Assembly (NCBI GenBank): GCA_944323665.1
Contig: CALUTN010000183.1
Span: 66,619 to 130,618, forward strand
Reading direction: 5' to 3'
DNA length: 64,000 nucleotides
From: Candidatus Gastranaerophilales bacterium
Lineage (GTDB): Bacteria; Cyanobacteriota; Vampirovibrionia; Gastranaerophilales; Gastranaerophilaceae
The notes beneath the pieces were generated by a model. That model saw only the letters and a list, made by a program, of their open reading frames with translations. It had not been told where the DNA came from and searched no databases. Of the stretch, positions 2,212-49,965 are shown in pieces. Position 1 is the first letter of the stretch; every line of letters starts with the position of its first letter. Both the position numbers and the translations under genes were made by a program.

Positions 2212-2892
2212 ATGAATTTAATTCTTCACAAAAAATATATAGAAGATACTCTTAGAATAGCTAAAAGATTAAATTCTGAAGATGAGGCCTCCTATCAGGC
2301 ATGTTATCAAATAACTAGAAGTCAAGTTATTCCAGATAGAATTTTCTATATTCCTAGACAAGTAGATATATTAGGAAAAAAGTGTCATAATGATGGTATT
2401 GCTCAATTTTATGGAACAAGAAAAGACAAATGTTTATTCTTATCAGAAATTGAGTATAAAAAGGGTCAGTTAAATTCCTCCAAAATAGAGGAAATTATTT
2501 GTCAACTTTTAGCTTATCATATGCCTTTTCAGACTAAATATATAGATGATTTTAAAATGAGAGAGGTATGTGAAGTAGATAAATTCAGATTTTTTGAAAT
2601 GGCAACGGAAAAACAATATGGATTAATTAAATTATATAATCCAGAAGTTAAAACCTTACTGCAACAATTTGAAGAAAAATTCCTAAGTATAGGAGCTATT
2701 ACTGCTTGTAAGGCAAGTAATTTTTCAGATTATAAAGAAGTTGCTAGGAAATTAGCTAATTTTGTAGAAATTTGGAATGTTGAAGATGTTGAAGACCATG
2801 AAATAGTGGCTATGATGTATAAAGATTATTGTTCCGAAAAAGATATTAATTTAACTATTAATTTTGTAGACGATTATGGAATTAACTATTGA
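2212..2892 (+). CDS. hypothetical protein, 226 aa
   Basis: First gene after the terminator; its last 17 bases overlap the next ORF, so the two are probably co-translated. The sequence is soluble, rich in Lys/Glu/Ile, with a region around residues 75-110 (FLSEIEYKKGQ, QLLAYHMPF) that does not match a family I recognise. It precedes a second unknown protein and nrdD, so a role in nucleotide or DNA metabolism is possible but not shown. Confidence 0.6.
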   Translation: MNLILHKKYIEDTLRIAKRLNSEDEASYQACYQITRSQVIPDRIFYIPRQVDILGKKCHNDGIAQFYGTRKDKCLFLSEIEYKKGQLNSSKIEEIICQLLAYHMPFQTKYIDDFKMREVCEVDKFRFFEMATEKQYGLIKLYNPEVKTLLQQFEEKFLSIGAITACKASNFSDYKEVARKLANFVEIWNVEDVEDHEIVAMMYKDYCSEKDINLTINFVDDYGINY

Positions 2893-3643
2893 GCAACTTT
2901 TTAAAGGTAAGGCAACCAGAATTAAAGAAAAGGAATATTTTACCACTGAACAGTATGTTACTCCTTTTATTAATTCTGTCTCTAAATTAACTAATGATTT
3001 TATTATTAATGTTAAACCAGCTGATCAAATCTCATTAACTAAAGATGGTGAAATAAATTTTGAAGATGTAATTTATAATAGAGTATGGATTCAGGGAGTA
3101 CTTCCAGATGAATATGCTTGGGATAATCATAAAAAAGTTATAAGTATGATTTATGCTCTAGATACTCGTAAACCTCTTGTAAAATTTTATACAGGTGCCT
3201 TAAATATGGCATGTTTAAATTTATGTGTATTTAATCCAGAAATGCTTAGTGTTTCTGAATTAGAACCAGAATCTGCTATAAATTATAGTTTTTTAAGAAA
3301 TGCCATATCTTTAACAGATGAAATTCATGCATACTTAAATAAATTATCTAATATAGAATTTAAAAAGAATGATATATATGCTGATCTAGGCCATTGGGTA
3401 GATAATTGTATTAAAGCAAAAATAAATAATGGCTTTGGAACTGTAAAATTAACTGAATCAACTCCTATTGATGTTTATAAGAATTTATTCTATAATGATA
3501 AATCTAAATACTTTACTACAGATGATAGAGTTGATGGTTTTACTGTATATAATGCATTTACAGATCTTATTACTCAAGATAAAAGAGACTTAGTTAATAA
3601 GTTTGAGAAGACTCTACTAGTTAAAGATGTAATAGGAATTTAA
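2876..3643 (+). CDS. hypothetical protein, 255 aa (weak DUF932-like character)
   Basis: ATG start overlaps the end of the preceding gene by 17 bases. The C-terminal third (VYNAFTDLIT, then DLVNKFEKTLLV) and the overall layout recall the phage/plasmid DUF932 proteins, but the similarity is weak and judged by eye only. No catalytic motif or membrane segment is seen. The gene ends 14 bases before nrdD. Confidence 0.55.
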   Translation: MELTIEQLFKGKATRIKEKEYFTTEQYVTPFINSVSKLTNDFIINVKPADQISLTKDGEINFEDVIYNRVWIQGVLPDEYAWDNHKKVISMIYALDTRKPLVKFYTGALNMACLNLCVFNPEMLSVSELEPESAINYSFLRNAISLTDEIHAYLNKLSNIEFKKNDIYADLGHWVDNCIKAKINNGFGTVKLTESTPIDVYKNLFYNDKSKYFTTDDRVDGFTVYNAFTDLITQDKRDLVNKFEKTLLVKDVIGI

Positions 3644-3657
3644 TTAATTTATAAGGT

Positions 3658-5826
3658 ATGCAAGTAAGAAAAAGAGACGGAAGTTTACAAGAATTTGATA
3701 GGAATAAAATTAAAGAGGCAATATCTAAAGCATTTGAAGCTTGTAACTGTACAATAGATCAATCAGATCTAGATAATATGGTTAGAGATATAAAAGTTTG
3801 GAACTTAATAACTATTGAAGAAATTCAAGATATTGTTATTGAGACCTTACATGACTATAACTTTGATATGGTTGCAAGTGCTTATGAATCTTATAAAGAT
3901 AAGCAATCTAGAACAAGACTACTTTTAGATAAGATTGCTTATATGGAAGACTATATAAATAGTTCTGAGAATGCAGCTACTATGTCAAATACTGATGGTA
4001 ATGCTAATACTTCAGCAAAAAATGTAGCTACTCTAGAGCCAGAAGTATTTAAGGATAATTTTAGAGATATACAAAGGTATAGAATGAAAAAGATTCTTAA
4101 AAAACTATATCCAGAAGTATCTTCTCAATATGAAAAAGATTTAAATCATCATATTATTTATACTCATGATGAAGCTTCTACTCCAACTCTAAAGCAATAT
4201 TGTATGGCAGTATCTCTATATCCATTAATGCTTAATGGTTGTGGAATACTAGATAAAACTACTCCTTCTGCTCCAAATGATATTCAGTCATTTAGTGGAC
4301 AGTTAGTTAATTCAATCTTTACTTTATCTTCTCAATGTAAAGGTGCAGTAGCGGTTGGTAGCTATTTTATTGCTCTTAATTATTATATTATAGCTGAATA
4401 TGGACCATATTGGTATACTAAGCTTGATGTAGTAGTTACTAATGAACATTGTTTGAAACAGAGAACTTTAAAAAATATTATTCAAAAAGCGTTTAAACAA
4501 TTTGTATTAGGAATAAATCAACCTGCTGGAAATAGAGGATATCAAAGCCCGTTTGTTAATGTTTCATACTATGACCATACTTATTTCAATTCTCTGTTTG
4601 GAGATTTCTATTATCCAGATGGTACTAAACCAGAATGGAAGGCTATAGATGCTTTACAGAGATTATTTATGAATTGGTTTAATAAATGGAGATTAACACA
4701 ATTAGCTACATTCCCAGTAGAGACATTTGCTATGGTTCACGACGGACATGATATTATAGATAAAGAATATAAAGACTTATGTGCAGAAATGTATGCTAAA
4801 GGTCATTCATTCTTTACTTATATATCTGATAGTGCTGATTCATTAGCTTCGTGTTGTAGACTTAGAAATGAGTTAGCTGAAAATACCTTTAATCCTACAT
4901 CAGGACTTACTGGTATTAAAACAGGAAGTTGTAATGTAATCACATTAAATATTAACAGAATTGTTCAGGATTGGTGGAAAACTCAAAATGGGCCTAGGGA
5001 AAGAGAAGATCCTATGAGTGTAGTATTTAATAAAAATCTTAATATTGGATTAAAGGGGTATATAACTAAGATATTAAATAGAGTATATAAGTACCATATT
5101 GCTTATAAAACTATGCTTTATGAGTGGGAAGATAAAGGAGCTTATGCTTCTTCAAATGGTGACTTTATTCATATTAGTGATTTGTATAGTACTATTGGGT
5201 TAAACGGTCTGAATGAAGCTGCTAAATTCTTAGGATTAGAAGTATCTAATAATCCTGAATATTTTAAGTTCTTACAATTAATTCTTGGAACTGTTAAAGA
5301 ACAAAACAAACTTCATTCTATTCATGATAAGAAGAGACCTTTCTTATTTAATAGTGAAGTTGTTCCAGCTGAGAGTCTTGGAGGAAAGAATTATAGATGG
5401 GATAAGGAAGACGGTTATGTAGTTCCTGAAGATGAAAATCTATATAATTCTTATTTCTATGATGCTCATGATGATACCTCTGTATTAGATAAATTTATTC
5501 TACATGGTAGACAAACCTATCAATATACAGATGGAGGTAGTGCAGCTCACATAAACCTAGAAAATCACTTATCTAAGGAACAATATCTAAAGTTAATTGA
5601 TTTTGCTATTAAAGAAGGTACTAATTACTTTACTTTTAATATTCCAAATAGTAAATGTGATGATTGTGGCTTTATAACTAAGCATCCTATTACAGAATGT
5701 CCAAAATGTCATAGTCATAATATTACTCAATATACAAGAATTATTGGATATTTGAGACCTATTACTGCATTTGGAAAGGATAGAAGAGTAGAAGCTGAAC
5801 AAAGAACTTATAGTAAAAATGTATAA
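3658..5826 (+). CDS. nrdD: anaerobic ribonucleoside-triphosphate reductase
   Basis: A 722-aa class III reductase, which makes dNTPs by glycyl-radical chemistry in an anaerobic host. The N-terminal ATP-cone (residues 1 to about 95, beginning MQVRKRDGSLQEFD) is the allosteric domain. The C-terminus carries two CxxC zinc pairs (CDDC and CPKC) followed by the glycyl-radical segment IIGYLRPITAFGK. Length fits the family. The activase gene nrdG lies 1.5 kb downstream on the same strand, and a thioredoxin gene is further along. No aerobic reductase is present in the window, which matches a strict gut anaerobe as host. Confidence 0.95.
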   Translation: MQVRKRDGSLQEFDRNKIKEAISKAFEACNCTIDQSDLDNMVRDIKVWNLITIEEIQDIVIETLHDYNFDMVASAYESYKDKQSRTRLLLDKIAYMEDYINSSENAATMSNTDGNANTSAKNVATLEPEVFKDNFRDIQRYRMKKILKKLYPEVSSQYEKDLNHHIIYTHDEASTPTLKQYCMAVSLYPLMLNGCGILDKTTPSAPNDIQSFSGQLVNSIFTLSSQCKGAVAVGSYFIALNYYIIAEYGPYWYTKLDVVVTNEHCLKQRTLKNIIQKAFKQFVLGINQPAGNRGYQSPFVNVSYYDHTYFNSLFGDFYYPDGTKPEWKAIDALQRLFMNWFNKWRLTQLATFPVETFAMVHDGHDIIDKEYKDLCAEMYAKGHSFFTYISDSADSLASCCRLRNELAENTFNPTSGLTGIKTGSCNVITLNINRIVQDWWKTQNGPREREDPMSVVFNKNLNIGLKGYITKILNRVYKYHIAYKTMLYEWEDKGAYASSNGDFIHISDLYSTIGLNGLNEAAKFLGLEVSNNPEYFKFLQLILGTVKEQNKLHSIHDKKRPFLFNSEVVPAESLGGKNYRWDKEDGYVVPEDENLYNSYFYDAHDDTSVLDKFILHGRQTYQYTDGGSAAHINLENHLSKEQYLKLIDFAIKEGTNYFTFNIPNSKCDDCGFITKHPITECPKCHSHNITQYTRIIGYLRPITAFGKDRRVEAEQRTYSKNV

Positions 5827-27547: not shown

Positions 27548-27735
27548 AATTAGTACCTAAAGATGAATTAGCAGATTTAATTAGAGCAAGTATTATTCTA
27601 AATTATTTAGAAAATGCTGGAGTAGATAATTGGGGATGGTATGGAGAAGCTCTTTCTGACTATTATAAAGATGAAGAACATATGGAAGATAATGATTATT
27701 TAACTAGTGATTATAAAACTTATGAATCTAATTAA
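27538..27735 (+). CDS. hypothetical acidic protein, 65 aa
   Basis: Overlaps the zinc-ribbon gene by 10 bases and thyX exon 1 by 14 bases. Contains VDNWGWYGEALSDYYKDEEH. No recognised family. Confidence 0.57.
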   Translation: MELKLVPKDELADLIRASIILNYLENAGVDNWGWYGEALSDYYKDEEHMEDNDYLTSDYKTYESN

Positions 27736-28189
27736 ACCTAAATTTGAAATTTTAGAGCAACAATCAGGTATAGACGGTATTTATAAAATGATAGAGTTAG
27801 CAGGAAGAACCTGCTATCGTTCAGAAGATAAGATTACTCCAGATTCAGCTAAAGGCTTTGTAGAGAGAATGATTAAGTCTGGACATGGTGCTATGTTAGA
27901 ACATGGTACTGTATATCTTAAAAGATACTCTTCTAAAGAGAGTAATTTAGTATGGGTTGAAAAATACGCTCTTAGCCCCTATTCAAGAATTTCCTATGGT
28001 GAAGGTAGTACTAGAATAGATGGCATGTTATATAATACTGTCTATATAACAACTAACCTTAGAGTTCTAGTGGAAAACAGCTGGATGGATGATTTGAAAT
28101 ATATTTGTGAACCTATAGAATATCATGAGAGAAGAGTATGTGTTAGATTTATTTGTGACAGAGGAGTATCTCATGAATTTGTAAGACAT
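27722..28189 (+). CDS. thyX: FAD-dependent thymidylate synthase, exon 1
   Basis: ATG at 27722 gives MNLIKPKFEILEQ. Family landmarks are LAGRTCYRSEDKI, GHGAMLEHGTVYLKR and the dUMP/FAD-binding segment GVSHEFVRH. Exon 1 ends in the T of the His codon at 28189, exactly two residues into the R-H-R-x7-S signature. Splicing to exon 2 in phase 0 gives 276 aa. ThyX methylates dUMP with FADH2 and methylene-tetrahydrofolate, complementing the dUTPase. Confidence 0.93.
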
Positions 28190-28304
28190 AAATTACTTTG
28201 TGCCGCCTAATGGTAACATTAGGGCAATAACCCAGTGAATTGCTGGAAGGCTAAAATTTAATATTTATTAACAAAATTTAATAGAGTGATTTAATTTTAT
28301 TTAG

Positions 28305-28312
28305 TATCTTTG
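28305..28312 (+). promoter_or_regulatory. Bacteroidetes-type -7 element in front of the HNH gene
   Basis: TATCTTTG matches the TAnnTTTG -7 consensus of Bacteroidetes housekeeping promoters and lies 25 bases before the HNH start codon at 28337. No convincing -33 TTG was seen at the usual distance, so it is a partial match, but it would allow the endonuclease to be made independently of thyX. Confidence 0.45.
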
Positions 28313-28336
28313 CATGAACTTAAAAGTGTAAAGGAC

Positions 28337-29113
28337 ATGAAAAAATTAAATTGTAAACTCGGTGATACATTCGGAAATTGGACTGTGGTTGATGATAACA
28401 CATTCGTCAAAAGTGGTCATACTTATGTTAAAGTACAATGTAAGTGTGGTAAGGTAGAAGATAAGTGTCTCAGCGATTTAGTAAATGGTAGAACTAAAAG
28501 CTGCAGAAGTTGTGCAGCTCGTGCTAGAGGTGCTTCAATTAAAATTGGAGACAAATATAAAAGCTGGACAGTAATTGGAGGACCAAAATTATCTGATTAT
28601 GGTAGCCAGTTATACGAAGTACAATGTGATTGTGGCACTGTAAAATGGGTTCAGGCTAATGAACTTACTAATCCTAACCGTAACTTTAAGTGTGCTAAAT
28701 GTGCTGCTAAAGAAAGAGGAGCTGTTCAGGCAGAACGTAATGGTAAGGTAGGAGAACTAACTCTAACTAGATTTACTAAATTACAACGTTCGGCTGAGAG
28801 AAGGAATATAGAGTTCCTAGTATCTTTAGAATATCTAAGTAACCTGTACGAATCTCAAAACCATATATGTGCAATAACTGGTAGACATATTGACTCTATA
28901 GATGAAGCATCTTTGGATAGGATAGACTCATCTAAGGGATATATTGAAGGAAACGTACAGTGGACTACTTATCAAGCTAATGTAAGTAAACACACTATGA
29001 CAATGGAAGAATTGTATCAATTTTGTAAAGATGTATTAAATCATGCTAATCAGCAGCCAAGCCAACCTTTAACAAAGTTGGAAGGTTCAGAGACTAATGG
29101 TATTATATGGTAA
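28337..29113 (+). CDS. HNH homing endonuclease in the thyX intron
   Basis: ATG at 28337 follows an AAAGGAC ribosome-binding-like sequence and is preferred over TTG 28310. Two zinc-ribbon DNA-binding repeats come first (VQCKCGKVEDKC with SCRSCAARARG, then VQCDCGTVKW with KCAKCAAKERG). The C-terminal HNH domain reads CAITGRHI, ASLDRIDSSKGYIEGNVQWTT and a final YQANVSKHTMT. The last 20 codons overlap the intron's P6-P7 strand. The ORF is intact. Confidence 0.88.
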   Translation: MKKLNCKLGDTFGNWTVVDDNTFVKSGHTYVKVQCKCGKVEDKCLSDLVNGRTKSCRSCAARARGASIKIGDKYKSWTVIGGPKLSDYGSQLYEVQCDCGTVKWVQANELTNPNRNFKCAKCAAKERGAVQAERNGKVGELTLTRFTKLQRSAERRNIEFLVSLEYLSNLYESQNHICAITGRHIDSIDEASLDRIDSSKGYIEGNVQWTTYQANVSKHTMTMEELYQFCKDVLNHANQQPSQPLTKLEGSETNGIIW

Positions 29114-29134
29114 GAACAAGCTAAATGTTTGATT

Positions 29135-29749
29135 ATGACGAAAGAAGAAAAAGCAACATTAATTGGATTAGTGCTAGGCGATGGTCACTTAGCATGTAGT
29201 AAGTATAAAAATTGCAATGCTTTCCACCAAGAGTTTTCTTTAATTCACTCTATAGAACAAAGAGAATATCTTGAATGGAAGGTTAATTTAATACATTCCA
29301 TTTTAGGAGGACATAAGCCATCTATTATAGAGTTTAATAATAATGGATACAAAGGTGTTAAAGCTATGAAGTCTCATAGATATTTTAGGGTTTTATATAA
29401 ATATTTATACAAAAATGGAATTAAAACAATTCCATTAAAAGCCCTTAATAGATTAACTCCTCTGGCTATTGCTATATGGTGGATGGATGACGGTTCTCTA
29501 TGTAAGAAAGTTAGGAATGGTAAAGTTCACGCATGGGAATTATATCTAAATACCTATTTGAGTAAGGAAGAAAATCAAACTATAATTGATTATTTTCAAA
29601 ATAAATGGAATGTTAAATGGAATCTTAATTTGAGTAAAGGTAAATACAGATTAAGATGTTCTACGAGAGAAGGTAGAAAATTTCTAACTATTATAAGACC
29701 TATTGTATCCCAAATTAAGTGTATGCAATATAAATGCTTAGAAATCTAA
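29135..29749 (+). CDS. LAGLIDADG homing endonuclease in the thyX intron
   Basis: A 204-aa enzyme with motifs IGLVLGDGHLA and AIAIWWMDDGSLC, the standard pair for the LAGLIDADG_2 (I-CreI/HNH-unrelated) group. Close relatives in form are the endonuclease in the RNA polymerase intron at 48926, which shares the EQREYLEWK / EQREFLTWK segment. It lies in the P8 region, after the HNH gene. All in-frame codons are intact. Confidence 0.92.
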   Translation: MTKEEKATLIGLVLGDGHLACSKYKNCNAFHQEFSLIHSIEQREYLEWKVNLIHSILGGHKPSIIEFNNNGYKGVKAMKSHRYFRVLYKYLYKNGIKTIPLKALNRLTPLAIAIWWMDDGSLCKKVRNGKVHAWELYLNTYLSKEENQTIIDYFQNKWNVKWNLNLSKGKYRLRCSTREGRKFLTIIRPIVSQIKCMQYKCLEI

Positions 29750-29764
29750 CTAACAGTTGAAACT

Positions 29765-29869
29765 ATGGAACAAATTGGAATTATAGTATTATTTACCACA
29801 ATTCTGGCGTGGATTATTCCCGCTGGAATACAAGAATATAGAAATGGAAAGATTAGTAAAGAAAAATAA
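29765..29869 (+). CDS. small membrane peptide, 34 aa, inside the thyX intron
   Basis: One hydrophobic helix (IGIIVLFTTILAWIIPAG) and a basic C-terminus, typical of a single-span membrane mini-protein. It lies between the LAGLIDADG gene and the 3' part of the ribozyme core. Being inside an intron, it may be a captured cargo gene. Confidence is limited by its size. Confidence 0.4.
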   Translation: MEQIGIIVLFTTILAWIIPAGIQEYRNGKISKEK

Positions 29870-30062
29870 TTGTAAATATCAAATATTTATAGAATTGTTT
29901 CCATATGCCTTATGTGAGAAACAAGGATATATTCCTGTTTGGTGTCCTAATAATTGCTCCATAGAATATAATACTGACACGAGTGCTGGGCATCCTATAA
30001 AGGATGATGATATAGTCCGATACTCCTTTGAAAAGAGGAGAGTTAAGGATAAAGAGCCTTAA
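29844..30062 (+). CDS. hypothetical ORF overlapping the 3' end of the thyX intron
   Basis: The first 45 residues (KYQIFIELFPYALCEKQGYI, then VWCPNNCS) look protein-like with four Cys, but the remaining codons run through the P7/P9 core. The gene, if real, would use the intron core as its 3' coding part, as the HNH gene does upstream. It could equally be a chance ORF. Confidence 0.3.
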   Translation: MERLVKKNNCKYQIFIELFPYALCEKQGYIPVWCPNNCSIEYNTDTSAGHPIKDDDIVRYSFEKRRVKDKEP

Positions 30063-30073
30063 CATAACAATTG

Positions 30074-30436
30074 AGAGTATTTAGCTTTGCACAGGAGAGT
30101 ACCCGCTATTGCAACTACTCTAAGGATAAGTTTGGTAATGAACTTACTTTTATTCAACCTTTATGGTTAGAGGATATAGATTCCAGTTTAGATTTCAAAG
30201 ACTGTTTACAACATTCTGAACTAGCTTACTTTAATTTACTTGATAGAGGATGGAAGCCTCAACAAGCAAGAGCTGTTCTTCCTAATGCCCTTAAAACTGA
30301 GTTGGTTATGACTGGCTTTGTGTCTGATTGGAAACACTTCTTTGAATTGAGAGATGCTGGAAGTGCTCACCCACAAGCACAAGAGTTGGCTAAGCCATTG
30401 CATGAAGAGTTTATTAAAAGAGGATATATTAAATGA
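30074..30436 (+). CDS. thyX: FAD-dependent thymidylate synthase, exon 2
   Basis: Continues the signature as RVFSFAQESTRYCNYS; joined to exon 1 this gives RHRVFSFAQESTRY, a clear RHRxxSxxxESxRY-type motif that binds FAD and dUMP. The C-terminal region has ARAVLPNALKTELVMTG, also typical of ThyX. The stop TGA overlaps the next ATG. Confidence 0.92.
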   Translation, partial: RVFSFAQESTRYCNYSKDKFGNELTFIQPLWLEDIDSSLDFKDCLQHSELAYFNLLDRGWKPQQARAVLPNALKTELVMTGFVSDWKHFFELRDAGSAHPQAQELAKPLHEEFIKRGYIK

Positions 30437-48881: not shown

Positions 48882-49965
48882 CGTTTACTCTATTTCTTTC
48901 AAAATAGAACCGACTATATCATCATTCACAATAAGTGAACGTCTTGCGCTTCGGGCGATAATTCAAGAAATTCTTGTTTAGTAAAATCATTTCTTATTTT
49001 ATATTTTAAAGATGGAACTTGTAATATATACGGCCTTATTATAGATATAAAATTTCTACAATCTTCTTCTGAAGAAGTAACTATAGAATAAGTTTCTTTT
49101 CCTTCATGAAAAAGTCTAAATTTTATATTCCATATCTCTGAGAAATATTCTATTATTTCTTCAGCAGTATCTTGATTCACACAAGTTGCTATTCTTATAG
49201 AATGTTGTATAGATGAGCGCTGCTTAGATGTGTTAACGTTTATACAGCCATCATCCATATACCAAATAGCAATTCCTAATGGATTTAACCAATTTAGTAG
49301 TTTTCTAGTAATAGTTTTTTTGGGAATATATACACTTCTGCGAAGAGCTTTTATTGTAGGATTTATAGAAAATTGAGTATATAATACTTTTCTACCTTTG
49401 TTATATCCACAAGTACAAATATATTCCTTTATTCCATTTAACTTAAACCCTAGTTTTATAGCAAGATTATGTTTCCATGTAAGAAACTCACGTTGCTCTT
49501 CTGAGTGGCTAAGCTTAAATACATAATTACTAGATATTGTTCCGTCTCCTAATAATAGAGCTATCAGTAAGCTCTTTTGTTCTTTGTTTAATTTTTTAAC
49601 AATTTTTCTTTTCATAATTTTATTCAATTAGTTATTTAACAAACTGAATAAAAGCCCTACTCTCTTTCGAGATAGTCTGTGAACTTTTATCCTTATAAAC
49701 AAGTATATTGATAACTTTATCAATTAGCTAGTCTAATATACTATAAGTTTATCTAGGATCATTAGCTGCGGATTGTCCAATCCAATTCTTTTTTACTATA
49801 CCGATAATAGTTAATTATCGCCATTAAGATATTACTATCTTAACTTAGTAGAATTGGCTCTGAGGAGTTCCCCGTCAATTCACAAGATTTAACGACTACA
49901 ATATTAATTTACTAAGTAGTATTACTTAGAAGGGTTAATTGTCACACTAGAACGGTCTAATGTCA
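48882..49965 (-). mobile_element. group I intron in the RNA polymerase gene
   Basis: A 1084-nt intron. Exon 1 ends in T (49966, TAT codon), the intron ends in G (48882). Core: on the minus strand CACAGACTATC (about 49675) and GATATAGTCGG (about 48911-48920) form P7, the same GACTA/TAGTC pair as in the thyX and DNA polymerase introns. The endonuclease lies between these strands. It is placed precisely within the catalytic metal site. Intron limits are inferred from protein continuity. Confidence 0.83.
48926..49627 (-). CDS. LAGLIDADG homing endonuclease in the RNA polymerase intron
   Basis: 233 aa with motifs LLIALLLGDGTISS and GIAIWYMDDGCIN. It closely resembles the thyX-intron endonuclease (SEEQREFLTWKHNLA against IEQREYLEWKVNLI). 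No TAG codon interrupts it, and its glutamines are written CAA/CAG, unlike the surrounding late gene. It therefore looks like a later arrival, readable under both codes. Confidence 0.93.
   Translation of the reverse strand: MNKIMKRKIVKKLNKEQKSLLIALLLGDGTISSNYVFKLSHSEEQREFLTWKHNLAIKLGFKLNGIKEYICTCGYNKGRKVLYTQFSINPTIKALRRSVYIPKKTITRKLLNWLNPLGIAIWYMDDGCINVNTSKQRSSIQHSIRIATCVNQDTAEEIIEYFSEIWNIKFRLFHEGKETYSIVTSSEEDCRNFISIIRPYILQVPSLKYKIRNDFTKQEFLELSPEAQDVHLL

Follow-up and report, generated by a model that had tools for sequence, protein, structure and literature searches.

One group I intron in a crAss-like phage thyX gene carries unrelated HNH and LAGLIDADG endonuclease genes, the latter in a cassette shared with an intron of another gene

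The window, the whole 64,000-nucleotide stretch of DNA that was analysed, contains a thyX gene of a crAss-like phage interrupted by one group I intron of 1884 nt. The features of the locus, including the ribozyme helices and the open reading frames that split them, are as follows.

27722-28189, + strand: thyX exon 1, ending ...GVSHEFVRH (Pfam Thy1; spliced product aligned to crAss001 ThyX)
28190-30073, + strand: group I intron in full, of the P7.1/P7.2 (subgroup IA) type, recognised by the P1 U.G, terminal G, covarying core and exon continuity
28200-28204, + strand: internal guide GTGCC, forming P1 with exon GACAT (28185-28189) with one A.C mismatch
28206-28223, + strand: P2 hairpin, two-sided changes in 6 of 6 pairs
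28231-28235, + strand: P3 5' strand CCCAG, pairs with 29986-29990, covariation
28241-28251, + strand: P4 5' strand (28241-28245) and P5 5' strand (28249-28251)
28337-29113, + strand: HNH endonuclease ORF, 258 aa (PHROG endonuclease families; AlphaFold2 model, pLDDT 88; conserved DRID..GY..GN motif)
29045-29081, + strand: P5 3' strand (29045-29047), P4 3' strand (29051-29055) and P6 hairpin (29062-29081)
29062-29066/29077-29081, + strand: P6 strands, covariation
29092-29096, + strand: P7 5' strand GACTA, pairs with 30013-30017, invariant
29098-29753, + strand: LAGLIDADG cassette between P7 and P7.1, beginning with a degenerate P7.1-strand copy, TGGT
29111-29137, + strand: leader of the LAGLIDADG ORF, these 27 nt opening a 41-nt run shared exactly with relative L009
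29138-29749, + strand: LAGLIDADG endonuclease ORF, 203 aa (Pfam LAGLIDADG_2, 120 bits; alternative TTG start at 29129)
29754-29757, + strand: native P7.1 5' strand CAGT, pairs with 29973-29976, two-sided changes in 4 of 4 pairs
29765-29869, + strand: 34-aa frame within the P7.2 loop, unsupported as a gene (no family match)
29844-30062, + strand: 72-aa Cys-rich frame beginning within the same loop, likewise unsupported as a gene (last ~33 residues are ribozyme core read in frame)
29973-29990, + strand: P7.1 3' strand (29973-29976) and P3 3' strand (29986-29990), covariation
29991-30017, + strand: P8 (29991-30006), which covaries, and P7 3' strand (30013-30017)
30023-30062, + strand: P9 (30023-30040) and P9.1 (30043-30062), covariation
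30074-30436, + strand: thyX exon 2, starting RVFSFAQESTR... (Pfam Thy1, 6e-22)
Spliced thyX exon junction: ...GTAAGACAT^AGAGTATTT...

The joined exons encode a ThyX of 276 aa which aligned without a gap across the junction to the intronless crAss001 ThyX (FICDRGVSHEFVRH^RVFSFAQESTRYCNYSKDKFGNE), the insertion point being RH^R within the ThyX signature motif. Since nothing is missing from the joined exons a hidden middle exon is excluded, and the P3 and P7 partners each occur once in the intron; the original prediction of one intron with two unrelated endonucleases was thereby borne out, and the arrangement named as able to overturn it, a pair of introns separated by a short exon, is excluded. 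The intron boundaries were also placed correctly: the upstream exon ends in GACAT, whose contact with the guide supplies the U.G of the 5' splice site, and the last intron base is G. The thyX region of the window is similar to crAss-like phages of the Steigviridae, for which reason contig C183 of the draft genome is taken to be phage DNA that was binned together with bacterial contigs.

The ribozyme core was assessed by aligning the window intron and nine relatives (ten introns) with their ORFs removed, scoring eleven helices. The alignment showed pairing in 95.6% of the cells, and two-sided changes in 33 of 56 pairs against a mean of 18.6 in shuffles, none of 500 of which reached 33; the covariation score was 0.513 compared with 0.175 in shuffles (again reached by 0 of 500), and slid structures paired in only 27-47% of cells. 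Covariation supported P3, P6, P7.1, P8, P9 and P9.1; P4 and P7 were nearly or fully invariant across the ten introns. The partners of P3 change together (CCCAG/CTGGG in the window, TTCCG/CGGAA in L102, CTCCG/CGGAG in L014, TTCGG/CCGAA in L013), as do those of P7.1 (CAGT/ACTG, TAGT/ACTA, CTAA/TTAG, CTCT/AGAG, TGGT/ACCA). The pairings P3, P4, P6, P7 and P8, the U.G at the 5' splice site and the terminal G identify a group I intron, and the extra helix P7.1 between P7 and P3, all four pairs of which covary, places it in subgroup IA (P7.1/P7.2). Both the covariation and the single P3 and P7 partners agree with the expectation of one core with one P3-P4 region and one P7 pair. Rfam RF00028 (Intron_gpI) matched two window fragments with 29.8 and 13.7 bits, the 29.8-bit match (3' half) falling short of the gathering score since the core is interrupted by the ORFs; the ORF-poor relatives L005 and L006 pass with 72-74 bits. 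A placement of P3' directly after the P7 5' strand was dropped, as the relatives place P3' immediately before P8.

An irregularity was seen in P1. The window guide GTGCC matches an exon reading GGCAT, as found in L102, but the window exon reads GACAT, leaving the A.C mismatch; relatives at the same site pair perfectly, either as GGCAT/GTGCC (L102) or as GACAT/GTGTC (L014, L015). This mismatch, absent from same-site relatives, may represent some weakening of splicing of the window intron, or the intron may have come from a GGCAT host.

The HNH ORF, whose frame is intact, occupies the loop of P5 and continues across P4', P6 and the 5' strand of P7. The protein matched PHROG HNH/endonuclease families (up to 7.7e-22); a Pfam search gave no HNH match. 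Its AlphaFold2 model has two tandem modules, each with CxC + CxxC, followed by a bba-Me-like region bearing the conserved stretch ASLDRIDSSKGYIEGNVQW, in agreement with the HNH enzyme with zinc ribbons that had been proposed; the tandem modules repeat one another (local score 107, compared with 49 or less in shuffles). The best matches of the model to solved structures were modest, namely PacI (Z 7.2, rmsd 6.4, 109 residues aligned) and Gme HNH (Z 6.6, rmsd 3.7, 77 aligned), and Foldseek against the PDB gave no match at E <= 0.001. The HNH relatives closest to the window are 57-62% identical and all lie in thyX.

The LAGLIDADG ORF matched Pfam LAGLIDADG_2 (PF03161) at 1.1e-34, with 120 bits against a cut-off of 25; its frame is intact and both LAGLIDADG motifs are present with their acidic residues kept (GDG and MDDG invariant). 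It had been placed between the P7 strands; its location can be narrowed to the interval from the P7 5' strand to helix P7.1, within a cassette of ~656 nt of which 612 are ORF. The cassette is absent from L005, L006, L007, L013, L014, L015, L102 and L183, where GACTAA directly joins P7.1 and TGAAACT. The possibility that the entire P7.1-P7.2 domain had been duplicated on either side of the LAGLIDADG gene was considered and rejected, since no second 3' P7.1 strand follows the gene. RNA folding of the cassette (z -3.5; two-sequence consensus) gave no clear element.

Two copies of the LAGLIDADG cassette are known, that in the window and that in L009, which holds the closest relative of the gene (protein 92% identical, ORF DNA 85% identical); relatives in genome contigs and plasmids were only distant, 27-34% identical. 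Between the two copies dN is 0.045 and dS about 1.0-1.2, giving a dN/dS of about 0.04, so that the gene is under strong purifying selection as judged from this sequence pair. The L009 gene lies at the same P7/P7.1 core position, but in an intron of a uracil-DNA glycosylase (UDG) gene; the exons there meet at GQD^PYP, which bears no relation to the RH^R of thyX. A second, different LAGLIDADG gene lies upstream of P3 in the UDG intron (L009 3248-4612), so that this too is a two-endonuclease intron. Both cassette junctions, left and right, correspond in the two loci, evidence against a misassembly. A 41-nt run (29111-29151, leader and start codon) is identical in the two copies though the ORFs overall are 85% identical, and the leader may be functional.

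Without the cassette the L009 flanks rejoin to a 25-mer, GGTTCAGAGACTAACAGTTGAAACT, that is present unbroken and exact in nine IMG/VR stretches and in the isolates L005 and L006; the host genes identified for the intact 25-mer are thyX (L005, L006, L183), DNA polymerase A (polA; L177) and dUTPase (L215). The rejoining is perfect only for L009, because the left junction reads TGGT in the window and CAGT in L009. As TGGT is the P7.1 strand of L015, the window's recipient intron may perhaps have had the TGGT version of P7.1.

The prediction had also included a 34-aa membrane peptide and a Cys-rich ORF. Both frames exist, but neither is supported as a gene: neither matched Pfam or PHROG, the 72-aa frame did not match NCBIfam, and an IMG/VR search with the 72-aa frame matched only the core region of L102. 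In other introns the P7.2 loop holds different short frames that also finish with EYNTDTSA..., encoded by the core, and this ending of the 72-aa frame is therefore no evidence of a gene. A tRNA-like sequence with a GGAGTTCGAGTCTCC arm lies in the L183 P7.2 loop (about 5280-5420 on the reverse strand); ARAGORN calls no tRNA there.

Related thyX introns show which enzymes occur at which site. Those inserted at the same site, RH^R (L102, L014, L015), have an HNH gene and lack the LAGLIDADG gene; at a site 15 nt upstream (SH^E), L007 and L183 have HNH and L005 and L006 have neither enzyme; L013, at a third nearby thyX site, has HNH. L102 and L009 derive from one metagenome accession, 3300032007. 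The 3' intron halves and 3' exon starts of L005 (Kehishuvirus tikkala) and L006 (Kolpuevirus frurule) are nearly identical while their 5' halves differ, which suggests recombination inside the intron; the records of both annotate thyX as two pieces and a hypothetical protein. The HNH gene of L014 (4001-4768) has TGA at positions that are Trp in relatives, and thus seems adapted to a TGA=Trp code.

The occurrence of such introns was estimated with a DNA core pattern scanned over the fetched loci (mostly IMG/VR), which yielded 108 distinct cores among the matches listed; left-hand ORFs recognised by eye as exons were not counted. Three of these 108 (window, L009 and L010) have an endonuclease on each side of P7, in keeping with the earlier statement that dual-endonuclease introns are rare. 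L010, an IMG/VR phage intron, likewise holds HNH and LAGLIDADG_2 within one intron; unlike in the window, both domains are in a single ORF, with the LAGLIDADG part in the P7.2 loop. This L010 ORF (3284-4624) is one continuous frame of 446 aa, the two domains being joined straight through the ribozyme core.

Having two intact ORFs, the window intron is biorfic (two-ORF). Biorfic introns are known from Podospora mitochondria (nad1-i4; Sellem et al. 1996, Sellem & Belcour 1997, as described in PMC4964425), where a group I intron that had held a single ORF received its second ORF by the arrival of a mobile element. The LAGLIDADG cassette is common to the thyX and UDG introns, and may move by itself between introns. 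Compared with these fungal mitochondrial cases, the window intron is from a phage, carries nucleases of two unrelated families, and has its second gene at the P7/P7.1 junction, recurring in the intron of another gene. A 2025 intron database reported group I introns with more than one non-overlapping endonuclease as a surprise; in the portions of that report dealing with them the validated example is fungal, a cob intron whose endonuclease genes are all of the LAGLIDADG family, and no phage case is described (PMC11835236). The DNA polymerase insert of phiNIT1 (Bastillevirinae) likewise has two kinds of homing nuclease in one interrupted phage gene, but was explained as two distinct introns (PMC11878797), whereas the window has one core. 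Introns of crAss-like phages have also been reported (PMC7886860); cr111_1, K. tikkala and K. frurule belong to the same phage group and have the same thyX intron family, unlike the window with one endonuclease or none, and are annotated with split thyX genes and a hypothetical protein or endonuclease. No validated phage intron with two endonucleases was found in the literature searched, which was largely that outside subscription journals.

We consider it quite probable, from the comparisons above, that this is a single IA-type intron in a crAss-like thyX that was mobile first by HNH and was later entered by a separately mobile LAGLIDADG element. The intron would originally have moved through its own HNH endonuclease, which, because the HNH gene is tied to thyX, would drive homing into intronless thyX. 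A second mobile element, comprising the LAGLIDADG gene and its short leader, would later have entered between the P7 5' strand and P7.1; this junction is peripheral, so the insert could loop out with the core unbroken, and the intron RNA would be expected still to splice. The LAGLIDADG enzyme is proposed to home into the ribozyme core because the feature common to its two homes is the core and not the exon; its target is probably the intron core rather than thyX, and by cutting the conserved core GGTTCAGAGACTAACAGTTGAAACT it would spread between introns of different genes. Of the recent second invasion that had been suggested, the second invasion is favoured by the HNH-only introns L102, L014 and L015; that it was recent is not, with synonymous divergence between the window and L009 near 1.

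A stronger version, in which the LAGLIDADG element is an intron hyperparasite that cuts the 25-bp P7/P7.1 core, has any such intron as a home and rides on the HNH-driven mobility, is tentative, and we lean somewhat against it. Should the LAGLIDADG enzyme indeed target the ribozyme core, its gene would count as a mobile element that lives in mobile introns, which would explain the presence of one nuclease gene in introns of unrelated genes. Targeting of the core is testable, as the cultured K. tikkala and K. frurule (on Bacteroides cellulosilyticus) have the empty core site. The locus and its relatives also provide a clean phage case of endonuclease gain, introns with neither enzyme, with HNH only and with both all being at hand.

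The main rival is that ordinary recombination, through the P7 and P7.1 sequence that similar cores share, carried the LAGLIDADG gene from one intron to another without any part being played by its endonuclease, which we judge unlikely though a serious contender. The breakpoints do fall in conserved core sequence, and intron halves do recombine, as the nearly identical 3' halves of L005 and L006 follow more diverged 5' halves; against this, two host genes with no relation to each other have the insertion at exactly one and the same junction, and the enzyme is under strong purifying selection, as expected if cutting maintains the gene.

Intron-borne LAGLIDADG enzymes usually target the insertion site of their own intron, and the two enzymes here lie within one thyX intron, both of which would suit a shared home, with each enzyme cutting intronless thyX in competition or redundantly. 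We regard this as improbable given the 92% identical enzyme in a UDG intron with an unrelated exon junction, and the same-site thyX introns lacking LAGLIDADG. The competition for one home raised in the original prediction is thus not upheld: the LAGLIDADG gene follows the core position across two host genes and close HNH relatives follow thyX, and the two enzymes therefore probably have different homes.

Some fungal LAGLIDADG proteins act as splicing helpers, and P1 of the window has its weakening A.C mismatch; that the protein is now a maturase and not a nuclease is nevertheless very doubtful with both catalytic motifs intact and same-site introns managing without it. Two separate introns, or a twintron from which the LAGLIDADG part is excised alone, might be imagined from an insert falling inside core sequence, but this is ruled out for practical purposes by the single P3 and P7 pairs and by exon continuity with no residues missing, and 612 ORF nucleotides in an insert of ~656 leave no room for a second ribozyme.

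In addition to the preferred reading of the thyX intron as HNH-mobile and later entered by the LAGLIDADG element, two further arrangements were noted. A second LAGLIDADG ORF in the window (48926-49627, - strand), 41% identical to the first, is surrounded by group I-like core motifs (48900-49960, - strand), a region in which Rfam gave no match; the frame of the gene hosting it appears to require TAG read as an amino acid. In L195 (about 2477-3936) a recA-like gene has, by eye, what seems to be the C-terminus of an intein immediately upstream of a group I intron, the loop ORF of which resembles, also by eye, a VSR-type nuclease.
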